DNA of 37,032 nt from an uncultured Acholeplasmatales bacterium. Its GTDB lineage: Bacteria > Bacillota_I > Bacilli_A > Acholeplasmatales > Anaeroplasmataceae. The DNA lies in assembly GCA_905236965.1 (NCBI GenBank), contig CAJOQR010000125.1, positions 1 through 37,032 on the forward strand, in the 5' to 3' direction. Under the pieces are notes generated by a model that was given only the letters and a program-made list of their open reading frames with translations, was not told where the DNA came from and did not search any database. Numbering within the stretch: position 1 is the stretch's first letter; each line of letters begins with the position of its first letter. The translations under genes were made by a program, and so were the position numbers. Below are positions 13,481 through 34,775 of the stretch, piece after piece.

Positions 13481-16400
13481 ATGGCAAACACTGGTTTAAA
13501 GGAATATAATAAATTTTTAGATTATAAAATAGGCGGAATATCTTTAAAAATTAATTTATCAAATGTTAATAAAAACTTTCTTTTTATATCACCTTTAACA
13601 TTACAAATCGGTAAAATGCCATTAGATATAAGCATTATATATAATGATTTATGTAAGGATAATATAGAATATTTTGGAAAAGGAATAAGATCAACTTTAT
13701 ATAAAAAAATAAATGAAATATCAAATGATGAATGGGAAGTTGAAAATCCTGATTTTACAGTTGATACATTTAATAAAATAGAAGATTTTAAATATTTAAA
13801 TTATGAAAATAGGAATGTAATAATAAAAGAATATGTATCAGAAGATTTTAATTATAAATTATATGATAAAGAAGGAAATGTAATAGAATATAATGATAAT
13901 TCAAATAATTATTTTAAGTATGTAAATATTATAGGTGAATCAAAATATTTAATTACATATCCTGCTAATCAAATAATTTATAAAAATTCATTTAATGATA
14001 ATTTAACATTAAATATAACAAATAATAGAATAAATAATTGTTATTATAGAGATTCATCTTCAACAGATATATTATTTGAAACAGAATTAATATATGATAA
14101 TTTAAATAGATTAGAAGAAATAAAGATAAAAAAAGGAAATGAATATTTAAGAGATGAATCAATAATATATGGAAATAATTCATATACATTTATAGATAAT
14201 ATAAGTGGTAATAAAATAATAATAACAATAAATTCAAATTCAACTCTAATTGAAGAATATTTTTTAAATAATTTAATAGGAACAACAACAATAAATTATT
14301 ATATAAATAAAACAAAAGTAATAAATTCATTAGGACAAGAAATAATTTATTTGTTTTCAAATGAAGGATTGTTAATAACAGAATTAGAAGATAATATGGC
14401 AAAAGGATATGTATATAATAAGACATTTAAAGCACCAACACTTCTAACTAATGAATTTAGGGTTAAAAGTATAGATAGCTCGGTAACTAGAAAATCTTTA
14501 GGTACATTTACAACTTCAAATATAAATAAATCTGAATATACACAAACTATTGACTCTGATTTGAGTGAAATAATAGATAATTTATATCAATTAGAAGGAA
14601 CTGGAAATATATATAAAACAGTTACGATTGAAGGCACATCAAATGATTATTTGACTTTTTTGATATGGATGAAAGAAATGACAGTATCATCAAATTCAAG
14701 TGCTTTTATTGAATTGATGGTAAATTCAGATATTCAAAGAATTTATTTAAATGATTTAACAGTATGTAATAATTTTAGGATGATAACAGTAGGAATAAGA
14801 CCTAAAAAATCATATAGTAGTGTTAGAATGTTAATTCATTTAACAAATTGTACACTATTAATGGGAGGAATCCAATTAATAAAAAAAGGATTTGGAATAT
14901 TATATGAATATGATGAGCTTGGAAATGTAATAAAAAAAGAAGATAAGCTTGGAATATCATCATATGAATATAATTCAAATAATAAAATAATAAATGTATC
15001 AGATTATGTAGGAAATATTAAAAATATAGAATATAACCAAAATAATCAACAAGAGATAAATGGAACAAGATATGGAGTTTTAGAAAAAAATGAATATGAT
15101 ACATCAAATATTCATAATTTAATTAAAAAAACATATAAAACAATTGAAGAAGAATTTAGTGAAGAATATTTTTATTCAAATGGAAAAGATTTAACAAAAA
15201 CAAAAGATATATTTTCAAATGAAACATTTTATGATTATGATACATTTAAAAATATATCTAATATATTAAGATTAAATATAGATGTTAAAGAATTTAATTA
15301 TAATAATAAAAATTTATTATCGAGTATAATAAGAAATCCAGAAGATAATTATGAAGTAGCATCATATACATATGATAATTATTATAGAATTTCAACAATT
15401 ACTACAGCATCAAATTCAGTTTATAGCTTTACATATGATAATTATAATAATATATGCAATATAACTCTTGATGGAATATCATTAATTAATTTTACATATG
15501 ATGATAATCAAATGTTAACAAATTTAACATATCCAAATGGAGATTTTTATACAATATGCTATTCAAATAATTATAAAACAATATCATCAATATCTATCAA
15601 TAATATATTAGCATATGAATATACATATGATGTGGAATTAAGATTAACAGGAATATCAAATAATGATATAACAAAAACATATACTTATGATAATGATTCA
15701 AAAATTATAAATCAAGAAATAAATGGTAATTTAATAGAATATAAATATTATTTAGATGAATTAAAAATGATAATTGATCATATTGATAATAAGAATTTTT
15801 ATCAAATATATAATTCAAAAGAAATTGAATTAGGGGCAAATCCTTTAATGTTAGAAAAATATGTTATAAATAATTCAAATCTTTTTATAACAACATTTTC
15901 AAATCCAATAAAGGTAAATAATGAAGAAAATTTTTGTTGTGCAAAAAATAAAAATAATATAATATTACCGATATTATCATCAGGTGGAAATACATATAAT
16001 TGTATTGAAAATGTTGGAGGAGTAAATGCATACTTACCTGGAAAGAATTCGAAATATTTAAGTTATGATTGTAATGGAACGACACCAGAAGGAAGCGGAA
16101 TTGCGATAGGAATGTGGATAAAACCATTTACCATAAATGATAGTTATATATTTATGATAAGAAGGTTTAATTTAAGTACTCCTGCAATATATGCAAGATT
16201 ATTAAATGGAAGTATAAAAATATATGTAGAAAACAATCAAGGAACAAGAATTAATATAATAACAACAGATAGCTTAATAACAAATAATGAGTGGACATTT
16301 ATAGCATTAAATTATTATGTAGATTATATAGAAGAAGATGATTATGGATTTGAAATATATTGTTATGAATTTTATATAAGAAATAAAAAATATACATATT

Positions 16401-18853
16401 ATAGTCAAAGTCAAGATTATAATATATCAAATTTAAATAATTTAAGATATCATTTAGGATATCAAATGATAAATGGAAATATATCAAATGTTTTCAATGG
16501 ATATATAACAGGACTAATAATGTCAAATGGCAATTATTTAAATACAATATTTTTAAAACAATATTATATAGAATCATTTTATGATTTAATAAATAAAGCT
16601 AAAACTAAAGCAGTAGATTATTCTACTCATACATATTTTCATGAATCAGGAATATATCCAAATTATGATATTTTATCACTTAGAGGAAATTTAGAAAGTA
16701 AAAATGGTTTAAGACCAAAAATATATGACATACCACAAATAAATGGAGAATATATAAGTTCAAGCTTTAATTATAATAATATAAAAAATAGTTATGTATA
16801 TACTCCAAAATCACTTTTAGGATATGAATTAAATTATAGAGATTATGGAACAATTATATTAAGTTTTATAACATATGATACATTATTAAAAGAAACTATA
16901 TTAGAATTACATGATTCTAATAGAAAAATAGAAGTATATATTTTAAATGATTATTTATATTTAAATTTGTTTGGGACAACATATAATTTAAATTATTATG
17001 TTTCAAAAAATGCATGGCATAGATTAGGGATAAGCTTTTCATATGATGAGCCAACAATTTCATTTAGACTTTTTTATGATAATAATTCAACATTAAAAAC
17101 AAAAAATATATCACAATTAGCATCAATAAAGACATTATATATAGGTAGTCAAGAAGAAAATAGTAATGCAAGTAATTTGTTGTTTGGACAAATAGCTGAT
17201 GTTTTATTGAATGAGGCATATATAACATATTCAACATTTAATGCAATAACAAATACAACGTTTGCTATATCAAAGGCATTAGAATATGATTCATTAGGAA
17301 GAAAAATAAAAGAAATAATAAATTATGATGGAACTGAGGTATTAATAAATACACATACATATGATAAAATGAGAATAGTATCTGAAAATTTATCAGGTGT
17401 AGGTAGAACTTATAATTATAATGCTAGAAATTATATATCATCAATTATAGATTCAACATATGGAAATCATACATATACATATGATGATAGAGGATATTTA
17501 GCAAGTGATAATAATATAAATTATGCATATGATGGAAATGGAAATATATTAAGTGCAGGATCGATGCAATTTATATATGATTCAAATTATAAAGATAGAT
17601 TAAATTCAGTTGGTGGAATAAATATTACATATGCATCAAATAATCCATATTATCCTATATCATATAAAAATATGACATTTACATATGAAGGAAGAAAATT
17701 AAAAGAAGTAGGATTACCTAATAATAAAAAAGTAATATTTTATTATGATGATGAAGGAATAAGATATAAAAAAGAAATAAAAGAAAATAATGTTGTAACT
17801 AAAACAATATTGTATTATTATGATAATAAGAGATTATTATGTGAAATAGATGGAAATGTAAAAAGAAATTATTTATATGATAATGAAGAATCAATATATG
17901 GATATGTAGAAGGAGAAATGTCGTATTATTATATAAAAGATTCACTTGGAATAATACATGGAATAAAAAACATATCAGGACAAATAGTAGCATCATATAC
18001 ATATGATGCCTATGGAAATATAATAAATGAGACAGGAACATTAAATAATAATATAAAATATAAAGGATATTATTATGATGAAGAAATAGGAATGTATTAT
18101 TTATTATCAAGATATTATTATCCAGAATGGAGAAGATTCTTAACACCAGATAATTATACTTATTTAGATTTTGAAGATATAAATGATTTAAATCTATTTG
18201 CTTATTGCAATAATAATCCTATTATGTATTCTGATCCTGAGGGCCACCTTTTTATAAGTGCCATGGTTATTGGAGGAATTGTTGGCTTTATAACTTGTGC
18301 AGGTGTTAGTGCTATATCTCAAGGTATAACTAGTGGTTGGAATAATATAAATGGATGGCAGGTTCTTTTTGATGGCGTAATTGGAGGAGTTAGTGGCATA
18401 TTATCATCATCAGGTATTGGAGCTATTGCATCTAGAATAATTTCAGGATGCATTGGATTTGCAGGAAGTGTAGGGGGAGATTTAATTTCATCAGGAGGTG
18501 ATTGGGAATCAATTAATTGGTGTAAGGCTGCATCTTTAGCTATTGCTAATGCTATAATTTCTTGGAAAGGTGGAGCACAAAATTCCAAAAATATAGGTGA
18601 AAAACTTCTTAATGATAAAGAAGTAAATAGAACATTTAAAATTTTATATGATGCAACTAATAATTATATTTCTGGTTCGATTTCAAAAAGAGGGTTTGCT
18701 GGAGTTTTTAATTTGTATGGTAAGCAGTTTATTAATTCAGTTACTGATGCTATGCCAGCTATAATAGTTAAATCAACAGCAAATGGACTTGCAAAAAATA
18801 CAATATCTTCGATTGCAAGTGGATTAGCCAATTTTATTGATTATCATGTATGA
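13481..18853 (+). CDS. RHS/YD-repeat polymorphic-toxin-like protein with two LamG-like insertions
   Basis: A 1790-residue protein. The N-terminal ~330 residues are beta-rich, with no signal peptide or lipobox at MANTGLKEYNKF. From about 460 come YD repeats (YEYDELGNVIKKEDKLG, YTYDNYYRIS, FTYDDNQMLTNL). Two insertions, about 800-1025 (GSGIAIGMWIKPF) and 1095-1265 (AWHRLGISFSYDEP), look like LamG/concanavalin-type lectin folds. YD repeats resume (LEYDSLGRKIKE, YAYDGNGNILS) and lead into the RHS core end: YDAYGNI, YYYDEEIGMYYLLSRYYYPE, FAYCNNNPIMYSDPEGH, ending near residue 1590. The last ~200 residues are a Gly/Ile-rich hydrophobic segment plus a short soluble tip of unknown activity. Codon choice changes at the core/tip border. 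Role as a contact-dependent toxin is inferred from architecture and the adjacent candidate immunity gene. Confidence 0.85.
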   Translation: MANTGLKEYNKFLDYKIGGISLKINLSNVNKNFLFISPLTLQIGKMPLDISIIYNDLCKDNIEYFGKGIRSTLYKKINEISNDEWEVENPDFTVDTFNKIEDFKYLNYENRNVIIKEYVSEDFNYKLYDKEGNVIEYNDNSNNYFKYVNIIGESKYLITYPANQIIYKNSFNDNLTLNITNNRINNCYYRDSSSTDILFETELIYDNLNRLEEIKIKKGNEYLRDESIIYGNNSYTFIDNISGNKIIITINSNSTLIEEYFLNNLIGTTTINYYINKTKVINSLGQEIIYLFSNEGLLITELEDNMAKGYVYNKTFKAPTLLTNEFRVKSIDSSVTRKSLGTFTTSNINKSEYTQTIDSDLSEIIDNLYQLEGTGNIYKTVTIEGTSNDYLTFLIWMKEMTVSSNSSAFIELMVNSDIQRIYLNDLTVCNNFRMITVGIRPKKSYSSVRMLIHLTNCTLLMGGIQLIKKGFGILYEYDELGNVIKKEDKLGISSYEYNSNNKIINVSDYVGNIKNIEYNQNNQQEINGTRYGVLEKNEYDTSNIHNLIKKTYKTIEEEFSEEYFYSNGKDLTKTKDIFSNETFYDYDTFKNISNILRLNIDVKEFNYNNKNLLSSIIRNPEDNYEVASYTYDNYYRISTITTASNSVYSFTYDNYNNICNITLDGISLINFTYDDNQMLTNLTYPNGDFYTICYSNNYKTISSISINNILAYEYTYDVELRLTGISNNDITKTYTYDNDSKIINQEINGNLIEYKYYLDELKMIIDHIDNKNFYQIYNSKEIELGANPLMLEKYVINNSNLFITTFSNPIKVNNEENFCCAKNKNNIILPILSSGGNTYNCIENVGGVNAYLPGKNSKYLSYDCNGTTPEGSGIAIGMWIKPFTINDSYIFMIRRFNLSTPAIYARLLNGSIKIYVENNQGTRINIITTDSLITNNEWTFIALNYYVDYIEEDDYGFEIYCYEFYIRNKKYTYYSQSQDYNISNLNNLRYHLGYQMINGNISNVFNGYITGLIMSNGNYLNTIFLKQYYIESFYDLINKAKTKAVDYSTHTYFHESGIYPNYDILSLRGNLESKNGLRPKIYDIPQINGEYISSSFNYNNIKNSYVYTPKSLLGYELNYRDYGTIILSFITYDTLLKETILELHDSNRKIEVYILNDYLYLNLFGTTYNLNYYVSKNAWHRLGISFSYDEPTISFRLFYDNNSTLKTKNISQLASIKTLYIGSQEENSNASNLLFGQIADVLLNEAYITYSTFNAITNTTFAISKALEYDSLGRKIKEIINYDGTEVLINTHTYDKMRIVSENLSGVGRTYNYNARNYISSIIDSTYGNHTYTYDDRGYLASDNNINYAYDGNGNILSAGSMQFIYDSNYKDRLNSVGGINITYASNNPYYPISYKNMTFTYEGRKLKEVGLPNNKKVIFYYDDEGIRYKKEIKENNVVTKTILYYYDNKRLLCEIDGNVKRNYLYDNEESIYGYVEGEMSYYYIKDSLGIIHGIKNISGQIVASYTYDAYGNIINETGTLNNNIKYKGYYYDEEIGMYYLLSRYYYPEWRRFLTPDNYTYLDFEDINDLNLFAYCNNNPIMYSDPEGHLFISAMVIGGIVGFITCAGVSAISQGITSGWNNINGWQVLFDGVIGGVSGILSSSGIGAIASRIISGCIGFAGSVGGDLISSGGDWESINWCKAASLAIANAIISWKGGAQNSKNIGEKLLNDKEVNRTFKILYDATNNYISGSISKRGFAGVFNLYGKQFINSVTDAMPAIIVKSTANGLAKNTISSIASGLANFIDYHV

Positions 18854-19260
18854 TAGATGGAATTAAATTATTATTAGCGAAAAATAGCTGGGTTTGGGTG
18901 CTTTGGCTTTGTTTGTATTATAGTGTATTAAATTACCAATCATTAGGAGTTCTTGATCTTAAAATAGAATTCTACTTGAAATATTGTGTTAAAAATAAGT
19001 TTTTAAATAAGTTATTCTTTAAAGATTCTGATTCTACAATCCTCATTTTTGGTGCTATATACACAATTATACTTTTTTTTGTTGCGCTGTTATATTCGAT
19101 TATTACTGTTGCATGTTATTGTTTAGATATAGAAATATTTAGTTTAAAATTTACATTTTATTTTTTTCCTGTTATATATGTCTATATACCATTTATTTTT
19201 ATGGTATATTTGGATATATTTCAAAGAGATGATTACTACAAAAGAAAAAAAAGAAAATAA
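18850..19260 (+). CDS. Three-TM membrane protein, candidate immunity protein for the RHS tip
   Basis: This 136-residue protein has three hydrophobic segments (near 13-32, 62-90 and 101-122) and a strongly basic end (YYKRKKRK). I recognise no family. Its ATG overlaps the RHS stop as ATGA (4 nt) with no separate ribosome site, so it should be translated by coupling to the RHS gene. Small genes placed directly after an RHS gene usually encode immunity to its variable tip. By that rule it is a candidate membrane immunity protein, which would fit a tip acting at or across the membrane. Function is inference; the ORF and overlap are direct. Confidence 0.6.
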   Translation: MIDGIKLLLAKNSWVWVLWLCLYYSVLNYQSLGVLDLKIEFYLKYCVKNKFLNKLFFKDSDSTILIFGAIYTIILFFVALLYSIITVACYCLDIEIFSLKFTFYFFPVIYVYIPFIFMVYLDIFQRDDYYKRKKRK

Positions 19261-26315: not shown

Positions 26316-28181
26316 ATGAAAAAGTTTTTTAAAATTATTTCTCTTGCATTATCTTTTGTCTTATTAATTACATTAGTATCTTGTAATAATGATATAAAAG
26401 GTTCTCTTGAGATTACTACTACATCAACAAAAATAGAAGCTACAGCTTCTTTTAATAAAAATACTATTTTAGAGGAATCTACAACAATTGTTACAATTAA
26501 ATTATATAATGAGGATGTTTCAGAACAATTAGAAAGAAAGACTGTTAATTTAGGCGATGAAAAAGTACAAGGATCTGTTACTTTTGAAGATTTAACATCA
26601 GATACAACATATGTTTTAAGATTATATGTATCTCATAATGGAACAGAAACATTTATTTGTGAAGCTAATGCTATAACTTCTTCAAGTGGTTCATCAGAAG
26701 AAAAACCTATAGAAATAAATTCAATTGCTGATTTTTATTTAATTGAAGAAGATAGAGATGCATATTATAAATTAATGTGTGATTTAGATTTTATTGATGC
26801 AGCTGATATTAGCATTTGTTCATCATCAGAACCTTTCGAAGGTGTTTTTGATGGTAATGGTCATACTATTTCAAATTATAAAATAGCAACTGGTGAATAT
26901 GCTGGTTTATTTGAATATGCTAAAGATGCAACATTTAAAAATTTAAATTTAAGTAATGTTTATATGAGTTCTTCATCTACATGTAAAAATATTGGTGCTT
27001 TAGTTGGATATGCAACTAATACAATAATAAGTGATGTTTGCTTAAATAATTTTGATTTAATAACACCAAGTTCAAGTTCAACTCCAACAACAACATCTCA
27101 AATTGGAGGATTAGTTGGTGTTATTACAACAGAAGCAGATTCAAATGATGATAAGAATATTTCTGAAATTAAAAATTCTAAAGCCTTAAATATTAATTTT
27201 TCATTAACACAAATAAGACCATCTTCAAATTATTTATTTTATTGTGGTGCATTTGCAGGAAGAATTTCTGGTGAAACAAGTGTTGATAATTGTAAGGCTG
27301 AAGGAGTTTTAGATATAAAAACTAAAAGTTCAAATGGAACTGCATATATTGGCGGATTTGCTGGTGCAATTGAATCTTCTTTAGTTGTATCAAATTCTAT
27401 ATCTATGACATCTATTAGCTTAGTAAGAAATTCAAATACCTTTAGCTTATTATGTATAGGAGGCTTTGCAGGATCTAACGCTGCAGGTCAAATTAATTTA
27501 GATAATTGCTTTGCTGTTGGTGATATTGAAGCATTAAATGATGAGGCTAGAAATTCAAATACAACTAATATTGCTATGAAAGCATTTATTGGTGGTGTTG
27601 TAGGATTAATAACATCTTCACCAAAAGGAGTTAAAAATTGTTATTATGCTAAAGCATGTAATGGAATTAGTGTTGTTCAAGCTGATATAGAACAATCAAC
27701 TAATTATGTAGATAAATGCTTTGTATCAACAACAATAGCATATGTATCAAATGCTATAAAAAATAAAATTTCTGATGTTTATTCATATGATGATTGCTTA
27801 AATGTAAAAGGAATGACTATAGAAGGCGCTGATACTTTATATATCGAATCTGCTAATAATAGTGCTTATGAAAATATTTTTAATCAAGATATTAAGGATT
27901 TATTTGAATTATTTATTAATTCAAGAGAATCTTTTATATTAGAAATGTCAAAATTTGATTATGAATCTTATTCTTATACATATGAAATTTTAGAGGATAC
28001 ATCAATTGAATTATCTAATAATGTTTCAATTGTAATTTTAGGAACTTCTAGTGTTTTAAGTGTTGAATCATCAACTATTATTGTTAAACCTGTTGGATCT
28101 CAAGCATTTAATTCAATTAAAATTTCTATGTTATTTGATGATTTTACAATAAATGCTATTGTTCATATGGTAACAAAATAA
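26316..28181 (+). CDS. Secreted lipoprotein with Fn3-like and GLUG-type beta-helix repeats
   Basis: A 621-residue surface protein. A lipoprotein signal peptide is clear: MKKFFK, a hydrophobic core, then the lipobox LVSC with the lipid-bearing Cys at 23. Residues about 30-125 look like a fibronectin-III-type beta-sandwich (ends YVLRLYVSHNGTETFICEAN). From about 140 the protein has GLUG/beta-helix features: FEGVFDGNGHTISNYKI, then repeated Gly-rich turns GGLVG, GAFAG, GGFAG, GGFAG and GGVVG at about 265, 310, 345, 381 and 425, each with a nearby N-C/N-S turn. The C-terminal ~100 residues may be an Ig-like domain. Likely anchored on the outer face of the membrane, perhaps for adhesion or glycan binding (inference). 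cysS begins 23 nt after it without a terminator. Confidence 0.8.
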   Translation: MKKFFKIISLALSFVLLITLVSCNNDIKGSLEITTTSTKIEATASFNKNTILEESTTIVTIKLYNEDVSEQLERKTVNLGDEKVQGSVTFEDLTSDTTYVLRLYVSHNGTETFICEANAITSSSGSSEEKPIEINSIADFYLIEEDRDAYYKLMCDLDFIDAADISICSSSEPFEGVFDGNGHTISNYKIATGEYAGLFEYAKDATFKNLNLSNVYMSSSSTCKNIGALVGYATNTIISDVCLNNFDLITPSSSSTPTTTSQIGGLVGVITTEADSNDDKNISEIKNSKALNINFSLTQIRPSSNYLFYCGAFAGRISGETSVDNCKAEGVLDIKTKSSNGTAYIGGFAGAIESSLVVSNSISMTSISLVRNSNTFSLLCIGGFAGSNAAGQINLDNCFAVGDIEALNDEARNSNTTNIAMKAFIGGVVGLITSSPKGVKNCYYAKACNGISVVQADIEQSTNYVDKCFVSTTIAYVSNAIKNKISDVYSYDDCLNVKGMTIEGADTLYIESANNSAYENIFNQDIKDLFELFINSRESFILEMSKFDYESYSYTYEILEDTSIELSNNVSIVILGTSSVLSVESSTIIVKPVGSQAFNSIKISMLFDDFTINAIVHMVTK

Positions 28182-28204: not shown

Positions 28205-29533
28205 ATGGGTTTAGTAATCTATAATTCATTGACTAATAAATTAGAAGAATTTAAACCTCAAAATGGAAATAAAGTTAATATGTATGTATGTGGACCTACT
28301 GTTTATAATTATATTCATATTGGAAATGCTAGACCTGTTATATTTTATGATATGTTAAAAAGATATTTAACATTTTTAGGTTATGATGTTTGTTATGCTT
28401 CTAATATTACTGATGTTGATGATAAAATCATTAATCAAGCTATAAAAGAAAATAAAACTGAAAAAGAGGTCGCTAGCTTTTTTGAAAATGCATATTTTGA
28501 TGCAACAAAAACGGTTGGTTCAAAAAAGCCTGATATAATTCCTCATGCTACTGAATATATAGAAGAAATGATATCTTTTATTCAAGAATTAATTGATAAA
28601 GGATATGCATATAATGTAGATGGTGATGTATTTTTTAGAGTTAATAAAATTAAAGATTATGGAGTCCTTTCAAATCAAGTATCTACAGATTTAGAAAGTG
28701 GTGCTAGAATTAATGTTAATGATAAAAAAGAAAATCCATTAGATTTTGCTTTATGGAAAAAAACAGATGCTGGTATTAAATGGGATTCACCTTTTGGAAA
28801 AGGAAGACCAGGATGGCATACTGAATGTGTTGTAATGAATCATAAGCTTTTTGGTACAGGATTAGATATTCATGGTGGTGGTATGGATTTAAAATTTCCT
28901 CATCATGAAAATGAAATTGCTCAATTTGAGGCTTTATATAAAACTCATTTAGCTAAATATTGGATTCATGTTGGAAGACTTGATTTAGCTGGTGCGAAGA
29001 TGAGTAAATCTTTAGGTAATGTTATATATGTTAAGGATTTAAAATCAAGTGTAGAAGGAATGGTTTTAAGAACTTTAATTGTTTTATCTCCTTATAGAAA
29101 TATTATTCCTTATAGTCAAGAATTAGTTGACCAATATAAAAAAGAATATGAAAAATGGCAAAGAGCATATAAACAATCAATTTATGAGCTTCAATATAGA
29201 AACATTGATTTAAAAGAAAATGATGAAAAATATATTGAAAGCTTTAAAGAATATATGAATCAAGATTTTAATGTTCAAAATGTTTTAACATTAATTAATG
29301 AAATTGTTAAAGAAATAAATGTAACATTAAGAGGAAAGAATTTTGAGAGAAATTCTATTTGTATTAATACATTAAAAACAATTTTAGATGTTTTAGGTAT
29401 TGATTTATTTATTGAGAAATTAAATGATGAAGATTTAGAACTTTATACTAAATATAATGATGCTAGAAATATTAAAGATTTTGCCACAGCAGATATTTAT
29501 AGAGCTAAATTAATGGAGCATAACATATTATAA
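28205..29533 (+). CDS. cysS: Cysteinyl-tRNA synthetase
   Basis: It charges tRNA-Cys and is a class Ia synthetase. At 442 residues it is slightly shorter than the usual ~465. Visible: zinc ligand Cys29 in MYVCGPTVYNY, the HIGH motif as HIGN (38-41), the GWHTECVVMNHKLFGTGLDI and GGGMDLKFPHHENEIAQ zinc and active-site blocks, and KMSKS exactly at 265-269. An AGGGAGTG ribosome site precedes the ATG. It opens the Firmicutes-conserved cysS-mrnC pair; its stop overlaps the mrnC start by one base (TAATG). No own promoter is evident. Confidence 0.96.
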   Translation: MGLVIYNSLTNKLEEFKPQNGNKVNMYVCGPTVYNYIHIGNARPVIFYDMLKRYLTFLGYDVCYASNITDVDDKIINQAIKENKTEKEVASFFENAYFDATKTVGSKKPDIIPHATEYIEEMISFIQELIDKGYAYNVDGDVFFRVNKIKDYGVLSNQVSTDLESGARINVNDKKENPLDFALWKKTDAGIKWDSPFGKGRPGWHTECVVMNHKLFGTGLDIHGGGMDLKFPHHENEIAQFEALYKTHLAKYWIHVGRLDLAGAKMSKSLGNVIYVKDLKSSVEGMVLRTLIVLSPYRNIIPYSQELVDQYKKEYEKWQRAYKQSIYELQYRNIDLKENDEKYIESFKEYMNQDFNVQNVLTLINEIVKEINVTLRGKNFERNSICINTLKTILDVLGIDLFIEKLNDEDLELYTKYNDARNIKDFATADIYRAKLMEHNIL

Positions 29534-29907
29534 TGGATATTAATTTATTAAATGGATTATCACTTGCTTATATTGGTGATGCTTATTATGAATTAAAAGT
29601 CAGGACTCATTTTATTAATTTGGGCTATATGAAAGTTAATGATTTGCATAAATTTGTTGTTAAATATACAAGTGGTGATGCTCAAGCTAAATTTATTCAT
29701 TATTTTTTAGAGAAAAATATTTTAAAAGAAGAAGAGATTCTTATTTTTAAAAGAGGAAGAAATTCTCATGTTCATACATCAAGAAAAAATCTTGAATTAA
29801 AAGATTATTTAGATGCTACAGGGTTTGAAGCTATATTTGGATATTTATATTTAAAAAATGAAATAAATAGAATTGATGAATTGATGGATATTATATTTAA
29901 AATATAA
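29533..29907 (+). CDS. mrnC: Mini-ribonuclease III
   Basis: An RNase III-like dimeric nuclease without the RNA-binding domain; in Bacillus it matures 23S rRNA. The 124-residue length fits the family. The catalytic acidic residues sit in LAYIGDAYYE (Asp16 and Glu20) and in FEAIFGYLYL (Glu99). The RGRNSHVHTSRKN and DYLDATGFEA stretches are family-typical. The start is set by the TAATG overlap with cysS. In Bacillus the next gene is rlmB; here a P-type ATPase gene stands between them. Confidence 0.93.
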   Translation: MDINLLNGLSLAYIGDAYYELKVRTHFINLGYMKVNDLHKFVVKYTSGDAQAKFIHYFLEKNILKEEEILIFKRGRNSHVHTSRKNLELKDYLDATGFEAIFGYLYLKNEINRIDELMDIIFKI

Positions 29908-29926: not shown

Positions 29927-32900
29927 ATGGGAAGAAAAAAAGTAAAAGATAGTGATATTAAAACTGATGTTATTTTAAATGATGATTTGGAAACTTTAAA
30001 TTCAAAAATTGAAAATAAAACTATTGATAATCTTATAGAAGATCCAATGGTTAGAGAAAAAATAGAACAAAAAAGTAAAAAAGAATTAGCATCAGAATAT
30101 AGATTGGCAGAAAAAAATGCTAAAAAAGAAAAAAAGAAAAATGAAAAATTTGTAAAAAAGCATAGAAAGCAAATCAAAAAGAATCCTGGTACTTTAATTA
30201 GATATAATCCAGATCCTTTAAATGGTTTACCAGATGAAATTGTTGAAAAAAGAATATTAGACAATTTAATAAATAATTCTAAAACAAAAACATCTAAATC
30301 AATTGGAAGAATTATTTGTGGTAATATTTTTACTTTCTTTAATTTTTTAATTTTTACTATTGCTGGTTTTTTAATTTCTGTTAGAGCTTTTACTGATTTG
30401 ACATTTTTATTAATGGTTTTAGTTAATATTAGTATTGGTACTTTTCAAGAAATAAAAGCTAAAAAAACAATTGATAGATTATCTTTAATTTCTGCTCCAA
30501 CAGCATATGTTATGCGTGGTGGTATGAAGCATGAGATTCCTGTTACTGAAGTTGTGCTAGATGATTTAGTATTACTTGAAACTGGTAAACAAATTTGTGC
30601 TGACTCTATTGTAATTGAAGGAACTGTTGAAGTTAATGAATCTTTATTAACAGGTGAATCTGATGCTATTGTAAAAAAACCAGGTGATATTTTATATTCT
30701 GGATCTTTTGTTGTATCAGGAAGGTGCTCATCTAGAGTTGATAAAATTGGAACTGATAATTATATTGAAAGATTAAGTAATCAAGCTAAACAATATAAAA
30801 AGCCAAAATCTGATTTAATGCATTCTTTGAATTTAATCATTACAATTATGGCGTTTATAATTATACCTATTGGTGTTTCATTATTTTTTATAATGTATAG
30901 AAGAACTGGTTTAACATTTACTTATTCTATAAGAAAAACAGCTGGCGCTATGGTTGGTATGATTCCTTCGGGATTATTTTTAATGACAACAATTGCTTTA
31001 GCAGTCGGTGTTATTAAATTATCTTCTAGAAATGTATTGGTTCAAGATTTATATTGTATTGAAATGCTTGCAAGAGTTAATTGTATTTGTTTAGATAAAA
31101 CAGGTACTATAACAGATGGAACAATGAGTGTTAAAAATGTTATAGATTATAATACTTTTTATGGACTGGCTACTAATAATGTTATAAGTGCAATGCTCAA
31201 TGTTTTGCAGGATAATAACTTAACATCGCAAGCATTAGAAGAAAAATTTGGATTAGGTAAAAGAATAAAGCATATTGCTAAAATACCTTTTTCATCTGCT
31301 AGAAAATTTCAGGCTGTTACATTTGAAAAATATGGAACATTTATTTTAGGCGCTCCTGAATTTGTTTTTAAAGAAAAATATAATCTTATTAAAAATGATG
31401 TTAATAAATATGCAGCTTTAGGATATAGAGTTTTAGTATTAGCTCATAAGGATGGAACTATTGAAGGAACTGAACTTCCTAAAACTGAAGTAGAAATGGC
31501 TTCAATGATTTTAATTGAAGATAATATTAGGCTAGATGCGATTAATACCATTAGATATTTTAAAGAATCTGGTGTTGAGGTTAAGGTTATTTCTGGTGAT
31601 AATCCTTTAACTGTTTCAAAAATAAGTCAAAGGGCTGGTATTGAAGGTGCTGAAGATTATGTTTCTTTAGAAGGCTTATCTGAAAATGATGTTAAGCAAA
31701 TGGCTTTAAGATATACAGTTTTTGGTAGAGTTTCTCCTTCTCAAAAGAAAATATTGGTTGAAACATTAAAAGAAAATGGTAGAACTGTTGCGATGACAGG
31801 TGATGGTGTTAATGATATTTTAGCTTTAAAAGAAGCAGATTGCTCTATTGCTGTTGCAAGTGGTTCAGAGGCTGCAAGAAATGTTTCTCATTTAGTTTTA
31901 CTAGATTCTAATTTTGATTCTATGCCTAAAGTAGTTGCTGAAGGAAGAAGAGTCATTAATAATGTTACTTCTGTTGCATCATTATTTTTAACAAAGACAA
32001 TTTTTTCATTATTATTAGCTATTCAAGCTTTGATTACAGGAACATATCCAATTTCTACTAACCAGTTATTTTTAATTGATGTTCTAGCTATTGGTATTCC
32101 ATCACTTGTTTTAGTAATTGAACCTAATAATAATACTTTCCAAGGTAAATTTTTATCTAATGTAATTAGAAAGGCATTACCTGGTGCTATAACGATATTA
32201 TTTATATCAATTATTGTTTTTGGATTAGTTGATAGTCTTAGCCTAGACCGGACTACAACATCAACAATTATTGTTATTGCTGCAACGCATACATGCTTAA
32301 TGGTATTATATAAAGCATGTAAACCATTTAATACAATTAGAAAATTTTTATTTGGAATATGTTATTCGTTATTCTTATTTGCAATATTTTTAATGCCACA
32401 AATATTTGAATTTAAGCCTTTAGTAAGCTTTTCTGAATATTATACTTCTAATTTGAATTCATCTTCTATTGCAAATTACCCTTCTGTTTCGATAAGTGAA
32501 GATAATTATTATGTAATAGATGGTATGATTACAAATTATATAAAAACAACTATATCCTCATCAGATTATTTTACAGCAAGGTATAATTCAAATGATGGTA
32601 AATATTATTATTATATAAATGGTATTACAGCTACTAATATTGAAGTTGAAAATCCTTTAATTTCATATGATAATCAAGGCTTTATATATTTAGGTGGATA
32701 TAGAGTATCTAATTATTCTTATTCAGATTTAATATCTTATACAACTGATGATGCTGGAAATTCTAATGTAATACAAAATATTCATATAGATGAATTAGGA
32801 TATGTATATTATGGACTTTCTGATGATGATAGGCCTGTTAAGATTTTAATTCCTGCAAATGAAAATAATTTATATTATAACCATACTCTTAATTATGGTA

Positions 32901-33907
32901 GAGCAGTTGAAGAAGAAGTTCAATTAAAAATTATGCCAACAGTTGAAATTTCATCTGGAAATATAATTATTGATTCTGTTTCATCTGTTGAAATTTTAAA
33001 TCAAGCTGGAAATAAAATAAATGCTAGATATCATTGTGATAACCTACCAAATTCTACTTTGAATGCTACAATTACTATTAATCCTAAAAATTATCAATTA
33101 TTGATTAATGATAATCCAGTTTATTATGAAGTAAATAATGTAAAATATTATTACACAGTAAGCCTACCTTCATTTACTACAAATGGTTCTCTTGATAGAT
33201 TTGATGCATCGAATACAGCTTATGTATATTCAGCAAATAGTCAATTTAGCTTGTATGAATTATTTGGAGAAAAAGTATCAGATGGATTATATAGATTATA
33301 TTGTTCAGATGGAACAATTGCAGAATATGATAGTTATAATAATTTTATAGAAGCAACATATCTTGATGGTAGCATTGATCAAAATTATATTTTAAAAGAT
33401 ATTCAAAATGGATTAGCATCATATGGTAATATTCCTGGAGGAAGTATAGATGTATCATCATTAAGTGTTATTCCTGGAACAACAAATTATTTATTAACTT
33501 CTGATAATGTTTCTTATTTTCCTGATTCAACTAATGCAGATGAAATAAGAGATGGTGTTTCAATTAATAATTCAATTATTTGTCCAACATTGGAATTAAC
33601 TACTAGTGGTAGATATATAATAAATGATTATTATACAAATTTTGAAGTTAACCAAAGTGATTTAGATCCTAGAATGAATTCTGATAATTATTTAGTATTA
33701 GGTGGAGTAGTAACTGATTATGAGCTTAATAAAGATGATATCATATCTAATACTTCTGGTATTGTTAAAGAATTATCAATTAAAGGTAAAATTTTCTTAT
33801 TAATGCTATGCTTATTATCAGCACCATTAATGAAAATATTACAAGGTTTAGTTCCTTGGATTAAAAAACAAATTAAGGTTATTCAAAAACTTATTACAAA
33901 AATGTAA
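29927..33907 (+). CDS. Cation-transporting P-type ATPase with a large extracytoplasmic insertion
   Basis: A 1326-residue membrane pump. A charged, Lys-rich N-terminal tail (about 1-110) is followed by TM helices, the actuator TGES (242-245), the M4 motif GMIPSGLFLMTT, the phosphorylation site CLDKTGTITDG (Asp390) and the hinge TGDGVNDILALKEADCS (625-630). It looks like the CtpE/Ca-type branch, with ion unknown. After the penultimate membrane segment (ending LMPQIFEF, about 824) there is a ~455-residue insertion, Ser/Asn/Tyr-rich, ending before the last TM (KIFLLMLCLLSAPLMKIL). It contains three related pieces: YYVIDGMITNY, FIYLGGYRVSNY and YLVLGGVVTDY. By topology the insert should face outside. 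A perfect AAGGAGGT site (29913-29920) supports the start. A terminator follows. Confidence 0.88.
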   Translation: MGRKKVKDSDIKTDVILNDDLETLNSKIENKTIDNLIEDPMVREKIEQKSKKELASEYRLAEKNAKKEKKKNEKFVKKHRKQIKKNPGTLIRYNPDPLNGLPDEIVEKRILDNLINNSKTKTSKSIGRIICGNIFTFFNFLIFTIAGFLISVRAFTDLTFLLMVLVNISIGTFQEIKAKKTIDRLSLISAPTAYVMRGGMKHEIPVTEVVLDDLVLLETGKQICADSIVIEGTVEVNESLLTGESDAIVKKPGDILYSGSFVVSGRCSSRVDKIGTDNYIERLSNQAKQYKKPKSDLMHSLNLIITIMAFIIIPIGVSLFFIMYRRTGLTFTYSIRKTAGAMVGMIPSGLFLMTTIALAVGVIKLSSRNVLVQDLYCIEMLARVNCICLDKTGTITDGTMSVKNVIDYNTFYGLATNNVISAMLNVLQDNNLTSQALEEKFGLGKRIKHIAKIPFSSARKFQAVTFEKYGTFILGAPEFVFKEKYNLIKNDVNKYAALGYRVLVLAHKDGTIEGTELPKTEVEMASMILIEDNIRLDAINTIRYFKESGVEVKVISGDNPLTVSKISQRAGIEGAEDYVSLEGLSENDVKQMALRYTVFGRVSPSQKKILVETLKENGRTVAMTGDGVNDILALKEADCSIAVASGSEAARNVSHLVLLDSNFDSMPKVVAEGRRVINNVTSVASLFLTKTIFSLLLAIQALITGTYPISTNQLFLIDVLAIGIPSLVLVIEPNNNTFQGKFLSNVIRKALPGAITILFISIIVFGLVDSLSLDRTTTSTIIVIAATHTCLMVLYKACKPFNTIRKFLFGICYSLFLFAIFLMPQIFEFKPLVSFSEYYTSNLNSSSIANYPSVSISEDNYYVIDGMITNYIKTTISSSDYFTARYNSNDGKYYYYINGITATNIEVENPLISYDNQGFIYLGGYRVSNYSYSDLISYTTDDAGNSNVIQNIHIDELGYVYYGLSDDDRPVKILIPANENNLYYNHTLNYGRAVEEEVQLKIMPTVEISSGNIIIDSVSSVEILNQAGNKINARYHCDNLPNSTLNATITINPKNYQLLINDNPVYYEVNNVKYYYTVSLPSFTTNGSLDRFDASNTAYVYSANSQFSLYELFGEKVSDGLYRLYCSDGTIAEYDSYNNFIEATYLDGSIDQNYILKDIQNGLASYGNIPGGSIDVSSLSVIPGTTNYLLTSDNVSYFPDSTNADEIRDGVSINNSIICPTLELTTSGRYIINDYYTNFEVNQSDLDPRMNSDNYLVLGGVVTDYELNKDDIISNTSGIVKELSIKGKIFLLMLCLLSAPLMKILQGLVPWIKKQIKVIQKLITKM

Positions 33908-34038: not shown

Positions 34039-34067
34039 ACTTTTTGGAAATTAAGTTCGGTGATATT

Positions 34068-34775
34068 ATGAAAATTTATGGAAAGAATTGTATAAACGAA
34101 GCACTTAGAGCTAAGGCTAAGCTTGATAAGGTTTTTTTGCTTGATACAAACCAAAAAAAAGATATTAACATAATTGATCAATTAAATAAAAATTCAATTC
34201 AATATGAAATAATTAATAAGAAAAAAATGGAATCTTTATTTGGATTGAATACTCAAGGATATGCAGCTTATAGACAAGATTATAAAATTTTAGGTGAGGA
34301 TGATTTAAATAATTTTATTAATTCATCTAGAATTTTAATACTTGATGGTATTATGGATCCTCATAATTTAGGTGCAATTTTAAGAACTGTTGATGCATTT
34401 GGGGTTGATTTAGTTATTTTACCAAAAAATAGAAGTGTAAGTGTTAATGAAACTGTTGCTCATGTTTCTACAGGTGCAATTGAACATACTAATATTATGT
34501 ATGTTAATAGCTTACTTAATATTTGTAATAAATTAAAAGGAATGGGTTTTTGGATTTGTGGTACAGATGCAAAAGGTAACATTTTAAGTTCTAATATTGA
34601 TAAAGATTTAAAATTGGCTGTTATTATAGGTTCAGAAGGCTTTGGTATGTCTAAAACTTTAGTTAATGCCTCTGATTATTTAATTTCAATTCCAATGGTT
34701 GGTCATGTTAATAGTTTAAACGCAAGTGTTTCTGCCGCAATTGTTATGTATGATTTAATGAAAAAAGGAGAATAA
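34068..34775 (+). CDS. rlmB: 23S rRNA 2'-O-ribose methyltransferase, SpoU/TrmH family
   Basis: A cytoplasmic SAM-dependent SPOUT methyltransferase. Visible motifs: motif 1 ILDGIMDPHNLGAILRTVDA, motif 2 VIIGSEGFGMSK, and motif 3 ISIPMVGHVNSLNASVSAAI; the knotted domain ends YDLMKKGE. The N-terminal substrate-binding domain (about 1-75, KIYGKNCINEALRAKAKLDK) is present. I choose ATG 34068 (235 residues) over the in-frame TTG at 34044, because GGTGAT lies just before the ATG. The position before a sigma factor and rpmG matches Bacillus yacO/rlmB. The exact rRNA target is inferred from that neighbourhood. Confidence 0.88.
   Translation: MKIYGKNCINEALRAKAKLDKVFLLDTNQKKDINIIDQLNKNSIQYEIINKKKMESLFGLNTQGYAAYRQDYKILGEDDLNNFINSSRILILDGIMDPHNLGAILRTVDAFGVDLVILPKNRSVSVNETVAHVSTGAIEHTNIMYVNSLLNICNKLKGMGFWICGTDAKGNILSSNIDKDLKLAVIIGSEGFGMSKTLVNASDYLISIPMVGHVNSLNASVSAAIVMYDLMKKGE

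Follow-up and report, generated by a model that had tools for sequence, protein, structure and literature searches.

A large acidic hairpin-repeat insert, predicted to be extracytoplasmic, in a P-type ATPase of the Acholeplasmatales

We found a P-type ATPase whose last two membrane helices, M9 and M10, are separated by 448 residues of acidic hairpin repeats that, by P-type topology, are placed outside the cell. The pump is encoded by a rumen bacterium, kin of the mycoplasmas, within the stretch of 37,032 nucleotides that we analysed (the window; contig C125 of genome G000). The initial annotation had called this an unusual pump architecture. There is indeed a large insert in an intact pump, but it is an inherited, family-wide trait rather than the oddity of one pump. 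We hold with about even confidence that it is a surface ectodomain on a pump of the CtpE/P6 kind, which would have arisen by one early insertion and been lengthened later, with a conserved base over the pump mouth and a variable, exposed middle, and which would make contacts at the outer face.

Pump core, topology and relatives

Positions 29927-33907 of the forward strand form a single open reading frame encoding a complete P-type ATPase of 1326 residues. The protein has the hallmarks of the superfamily (TGES, DKTGT and GDGxxND, with E1-E2 and HAD domains), and the three motifs from which a complete core had been proposed were all located (TGES, DKTGT and GDGVND at residues 242, 390 and 625). 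Hydropathy predicts ten helices, M1-M4 and M5-M10, with cytosolic N and C termini; M7 and M8 fall at residues ~750-768 and ~779-795.

28205-29907, forward strand: cysS and mrnC, conserved upstream neighbours
29927-33907, forward strand: P-type ATPase gene P0001, 1326 aa (Pfam E1-E2_ATPase 4e-43, Hydrolase 3e-20)
29927-30196, forward strand: Lys-rich cytosolic N-terminal extension before M1, ~90 aa, of variable length among orthologues
30650-30661, forward strand: TGES, actuator-domain motif, residue 242
30959-30976, forward strand: M4 motif MIPSGL
31094-31108, forward strand: DKTGT phosphorylation site, residue 390
31799-31816, forward strand: GDGVND hinge motif, residue 625
31973-32035, forward strand: M5, residues ~683-703, with a Lys kept in all aligned relatives (hydropathy, alignment)
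32066-32119, forward strand: M6, residues ~714-731 (hydropathy)
32345-32404, forward strand: M9, residues ~807-826 (hydropathy)
32414-33757, forward strand: M9-M10 insert, residues 830-1277, 448 aa, acidic hairpin-repeat domain, extracytoplasmic by topology (borders set against insert-free orthologues)
32480-32539, forward strand: hairpin 1 (PSVSISEDNYYVIDGMITNY), conserved and membrane-proximal
32681-32716, forward strand: hairpin motif FIYLGGYRVSNY, residues 919-930
32933-32974, forward strand: hairpin-like segment MPTVEISSGNIIID
33581-33643, forward strand: hairpin (CPTLELTTSGRYIINDYYTNF), beta strands in the model (pLDDT 74 in the best of five)
33689-33721, forward strand: last hairpin, YLVLGGVVTDY, residues 1255-1265, conserved and membrane-proximal
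33773-33838, forward strand: M10 (ends ~1304; hydropathy core ~1290-1304), then the Lys-rich cytosolic C-terminus
34044-34775, forward strand: rlmB, conserved downstream neighbour

P-type ATPases keep their A, P and N domains in the cytosol, which leaves the M9-M10 loop outside. Because five helices follow the cytosolic P domain, this established topology puts the insert on the extracytoplasmic side of the membrane. The M8-M9 loop and the C-terminus are rich in Lys and Arg, in keeping with this predicted location, and the interior of the insert has no hydrophobic segment by hydropathy (maximum 19-residue mean 1.08). The loop has 448 residues here, against 5-13 in insert-free orthologues and 2-3 in distant named relatives. 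A large outside domain before the last helix, where relatives have short loops, had been proposed at the outset, and the loops of 2-13 residues in the relatives bear this out; its first estimated extent (32400-33790, ~455 residues) was correct to within a few codons of the alignment borders.

None of the NCBIfam equivalog families of characterised P1, P2 and P3 pumps passes its cut-off (the best, TIGR01647, scores 258 bits against 615), and the sole NCBIfam model passed is that of the general P-type subfamily, TIGR01494. The closest plasmid-borne named relatives are annotated 'HAD-IC family P-type ATPase', come from Monoglobus, Enterococcus, Collinsella, Pseudonocardia and Tsukamurella, and are 34-42% identical to the window pump (34% for Tsukamurella, a member of the Mycobacteriales). 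At the M4 site they have PEGL, PKGL or PQGL.

CtpE, or P6, is family 23 of the uncharacterised P-type ATPases (PMC5615198, PMC10654040). CtpE mediates Ca2+ uptake in Mycobacterium smegmatis (PMC5615198), and the P6 group to which it belongs has PEGL in M4 and an Ile replacing the M6 Asp of Ca2+ efflux pumps (PMC10654040). The window pump likewise has a ten-helix core and, in M6, Ile722 (AIGIPS) at the Ca2+-pump Asp position. We take this residue to correspond to the Ca2+-binding Asp in M6 of SERCA, having aligned it by eye with the SERCA motif and also with five relatives. Unlike CtpE/P6, the window pump has PSGL in M4 and an acidic Asp718 in M6, and its M9-M10 insert sets it apart from these kin. 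In its sequence the pump resembles the P6 group and is set beside CtpE by published description, a likeness that does not prove the same substrate. A role in Ca2+ transport would be a lead, not a result.

The insert-free orthologues of the same order (families f2-f5 and genus g7) share the gene neighbourhood, 57-61% core identity and the motif GMIPSGL with the window pump, and differ from it in their short M9-M10 loop. GMIPSGL is the M4 motif in 30 of the 30 orthologues read; it is GMIPAGL in G444. The f2 orthologues (L110, L111), which have no M9-M10 insert, have an M7-M8 loop longer by ~40 residues.

Hairpin repeats and acidic composition

The insert repeats a unit of the form P-x-[IV]-x-[IV]-...-[YF]-Y-[VI]-I-[DN]-G-x-x-T-x-Y. 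Three related pieces had been pointed out in the initial annotation, and all are present (YYVIDGMITNY at residues 861-871 and, as listed above, the pieces at 919-930 and 1255-1265). A profile built from the last hairpin pair only was compared with 2,900 shuffled sequences, the best of which scored 9.9 bits. It detected the first hairpin pair above this maximum in 23 of 27 inserts, with up to 45 bits. Hence, the similarity between the first and last pairs exceeds chance. We set aside an insert-profile search that was partly circular, its alignment including the ABC hairpins described below and some first hairpins.

The last hairpin pair was modelled as beta strands, with a pLDDT of 74 in the best of five models and 43-59 in the other four; a Foldseek search of this model returned no PDB entry with E below 3. 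Modelling of the whole insert, from a two-sequence alignment only, reached a pLDDT of 35. We count this value, the single good run out of five and the missing PDB match against the ectodomain reading. No Pfam family matches the insert. Its profile gave short matches to antifreeze proteins in the PDB (best E 0.028 over 45 residues), which we took as chance.

The proposed richness in Ser, Asn and Tyr is confirmed (N 11.8%, S 11.6%, Y 10.7%). The insert is also strongly acidic (net charge -34, pI 4.1, 41% S+N+T+Y), a property that the initial annotation had left out, as are all 27 homologues (net -14 to -41, pI 4.1-4.9, 0-3 Cys, 32-41% S+N+T+Y). This composition matches that of the surface proteins read in G000 and its relatives (pI 4.1-4.5) and differs from that of the cytosolic proteins checked (pI 5.4-7.8, 19-24% S+N+T+Y). 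One possible use of the Asp/Glu surplus would be a funnel that raises the level of Ca2+, or of some other divalent cation, around the mouth of an uptake pump like CtpE. The charge of all 27 homologues would fit this, as would the Ca2+ uptake reported for CtpE (PMC5615198) and the P6-type change from Asp to Ile in M6. However, we noticed no conserved Ca2+-binding motif in the insert, M4 reads PSGL and not PEGL, and the substrate is unproven. Since acidity is usual for the surface proteins of these genomes, it is not specific to cation gathering, and we consider such a funnel quite unlikely.

Searching with the insert alone retrieved no free protein built of the whole insert, only similar single hairpins in lipoproteins. 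The hairpins 'SDDGYWVIDGIKT' and 'GENGNWFIGDVDTGVKA' of the lipoprotein-like surface proteins L148 (G277:C51) and L098 (G001:C79) weakly resemble the repeats. The hairpins of these two proteins are of the type 'GYWVIDGIKT' or 'GNWFIGDVDTGVKA' and share the pattern G-aromatic-x-I-x-G-x-x-T with the insert. In contrast to those of the insert, the lipoprotein-like hairpins are single or scattered and score weakly (E 3e-4; 10.6 bits against the shuffle maximum of 9.9).

A different setting is found in G020, a genome of the window's family. There, an ABC exporter half (L046, 4629-6722, reverse strand; G020:C31) has a hairpin-repeat stretch of ~94 residues inside its cytosolic nucleotide-binding domain (NBD), between Walker A and the Q-loop. 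Seven related sequences lack the stretch, which reaches 31 bits with the profile of the ATPase hairpins, where shuffled sequences reach at most 9.9. It may be a cassette that has moved or an error of assembly. As it sits in a cytosolic domain, the presence of the hairpin motif is not by itself proof that a protein segment lies outside.

Distribution and history of the insert

Orthologues of the pump turned up by protein search in nearly all relatives. We ran the insert profile against 55 genomes of the window's family (f1) and 395 genomes of the class, all draft metagenome assemblies. The profile matched 49 of the 55 f1 genomes; one match is the ABC protein of G020, which leaves 48 with the insert in the ATPase. 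G032 (genus g7) has an intact gene, a 901-aa open frame with an M9-M10 loop of 7-9 residues and no insert. Contig ends truncate the orthologues of G015 and G067, that of G067 just within the insert, and no strong orthologue was found in G020, G030, G065 and G074, most of which are incomplete genomes. Among the 395 class genomes, the profile matched f1 ATPases only, plus one lipoprotein hairpin in another family (G277, E 3e-4).

The order cysS-mrnC-ATPase-rlmB is kept across the order (families f1-f5): cysS and/or mrnC lie upstream at every locus with enough flank, and rlmB lies downstream where the stretch reaches. We base orthology on this synteny together with the 57-85% core identity. In the window, an acidic 621-aa lipoprotein with GLUG motifs lies directly upstream of cysS (26316-28181, forward strand). 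Elsewhere in the window, a 1790-aa RHS/YD-repeat protein (13481-18853, forward strand; Pfam RHS_repeat 5e-8) is overlapped at its end by four bases of the gene for a 136-aa small membrane protein (18850-19260), possibly a pair of the polymorphic-toxin type.

The full-length f1 orthologues listed have 1196-1419 aa, except that of G032, and those of f2-f5 have 778-949 aa, besides G444 (1017 aa) and a few shorter partial frames. We considered G444 as a long insert-bearing orthologue and rejected it: its extra length is an N-terminal extension. The insert is in frame in every full-length copy that bears it and measures 290-297 aa in genera g2 and g3, 353 in g4, 379 in g6 and 412-494 in g1; narrower borders give 281-485, so that the overall span is 281-494 depending on the border. 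When paralogues served as outgroup, branches were long and support was weak, and we redid the tree without them. In the resulting maximum-likelihood tree (786 core columns), all insert-bearers fall in a single clade (aLRT 99.9, bootstrap 100), and insert-free g7 adjoins it as sister. The tree supports a single gain after g7 split off, with later lengthening, which is the simplest account; a gain before g7 followed by loss in g7 is possible.

The initial annotation would have given up its claim if the insert were a known feature of the family, present in all close relatives. It is indeed present in the relatives, but we found no published description of this pump architecture in the open literature searched, and the domain seems undescribed so far.

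Mean identity per 25-residue block is 0.41-0.47 at the membrane-proximal ends of the insert and mostly 0.12-0.37 in its middle. Between the window and the closest named relative contig (L004, an Acholeplasmatales assembly from sheep rumen), dN/dS is 0.40 in the insert and 0.13 in the core, at a dS of 0.70 and 0.71. Within one gene, the insert is thus under constraint, but less tightly so than the pump core, and it evolves faster. A loop that is tolerated and does little could likewise evolve faster and change in length, and we count both observations against a role as ectodomain. The main rival to that reading is a largely neutral or weakly useful expansion, in which the M9-M10 loop tolerates insertions and hairpin cassettes spread and duplicate in the lineage with no specific job. 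It would explain the stepwise change in length (290 to 450 aa), the variable middle, the hairpins that interrupt an ABC protein and the fact that g7 manages without the insert. Yet the insert is kept in nearly every genome of the family with an intact gene, always in frame in full-length copies; its dN/dS of 0.40, its conserved ends and motifs and its uniform acidity also speak against neutrality, which leaves this alternative possible but doubtful.

Binding to the cell wall had been suggested as a function, and the distribution of wall genes weakens it. We found neither mraY nor a PBP transpeptidase domain in G000 or in several insert-keeping genomes that are 95-99% complete; the absence from G000 carries less weight, as this genome has a completeness of only 83%. 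The insert is kept without both markers in g1 genomes at 95-99% completeness and g4 genomes at 91-99%. An anchor to peptidoglycan would suit the surface-type hairpins and those bearers that have mraY and PBP genes (g3, g6 and part of g1). However, lineages without wall genes keep the insert and insert-free g7 carries both markers. Retention of the insert is thus unlikely to depend on peptidoglycan, and we regard such an anchor as very improbable. Within g1, some members have mraY and PBP genes and near-complete others lack them, which suggests repeated recent loss of the cell wall in this genus.

Proposed role of the insert

On the ectodomain reading, a surface domain would have entered the M9-M10 loop of a P-type cation pump once, early in the family, and then lengthened. 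The domain consists of acidic beta-hairpins in series and, by the established topology, lies on the outer side. Both of its membrane-adjacent ends are conserved and probably serve as a fixed base above the pump mouth, and the variable middle would be exposed. The beta subunits of P4 ATPases and of the Na,K-ATPase place a large ectodomain beside the pump (PMC10654040). The likeness is one of analogy, an ectodomain at the pump's outer face: beta subunits are separate proteins, the insert is part of the pump chain, and the two have no sequence relation. By this analogy, the insert may be a built-in ectodomain, similar to a beta subunit in position and role, that takes no part in catalysis and covers the outer face of the pump, where it may contact ions, polymers or other surface proteins. 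A stronger version, which we think rather unlikely, would make it an intramolecular beta subunit that governs how the outer pump mouth is reached or what it interacts with, and that is built from hairpin cassettes able to enter other proteins, such as the NBD of the ABC exporter.

In other cation pumps, large ectodomains come mainly from separate subunits. The insert-bearing lineage, its insert-free sister genus and their conserved gene neighbourhood offer a natural before-and-after pair for the effect of an ectodomain on a P-type pump. The insert also gives a P6-like pump of uncultured gut and rumen bacteria, about which little is known, a surface domain that is accessible.
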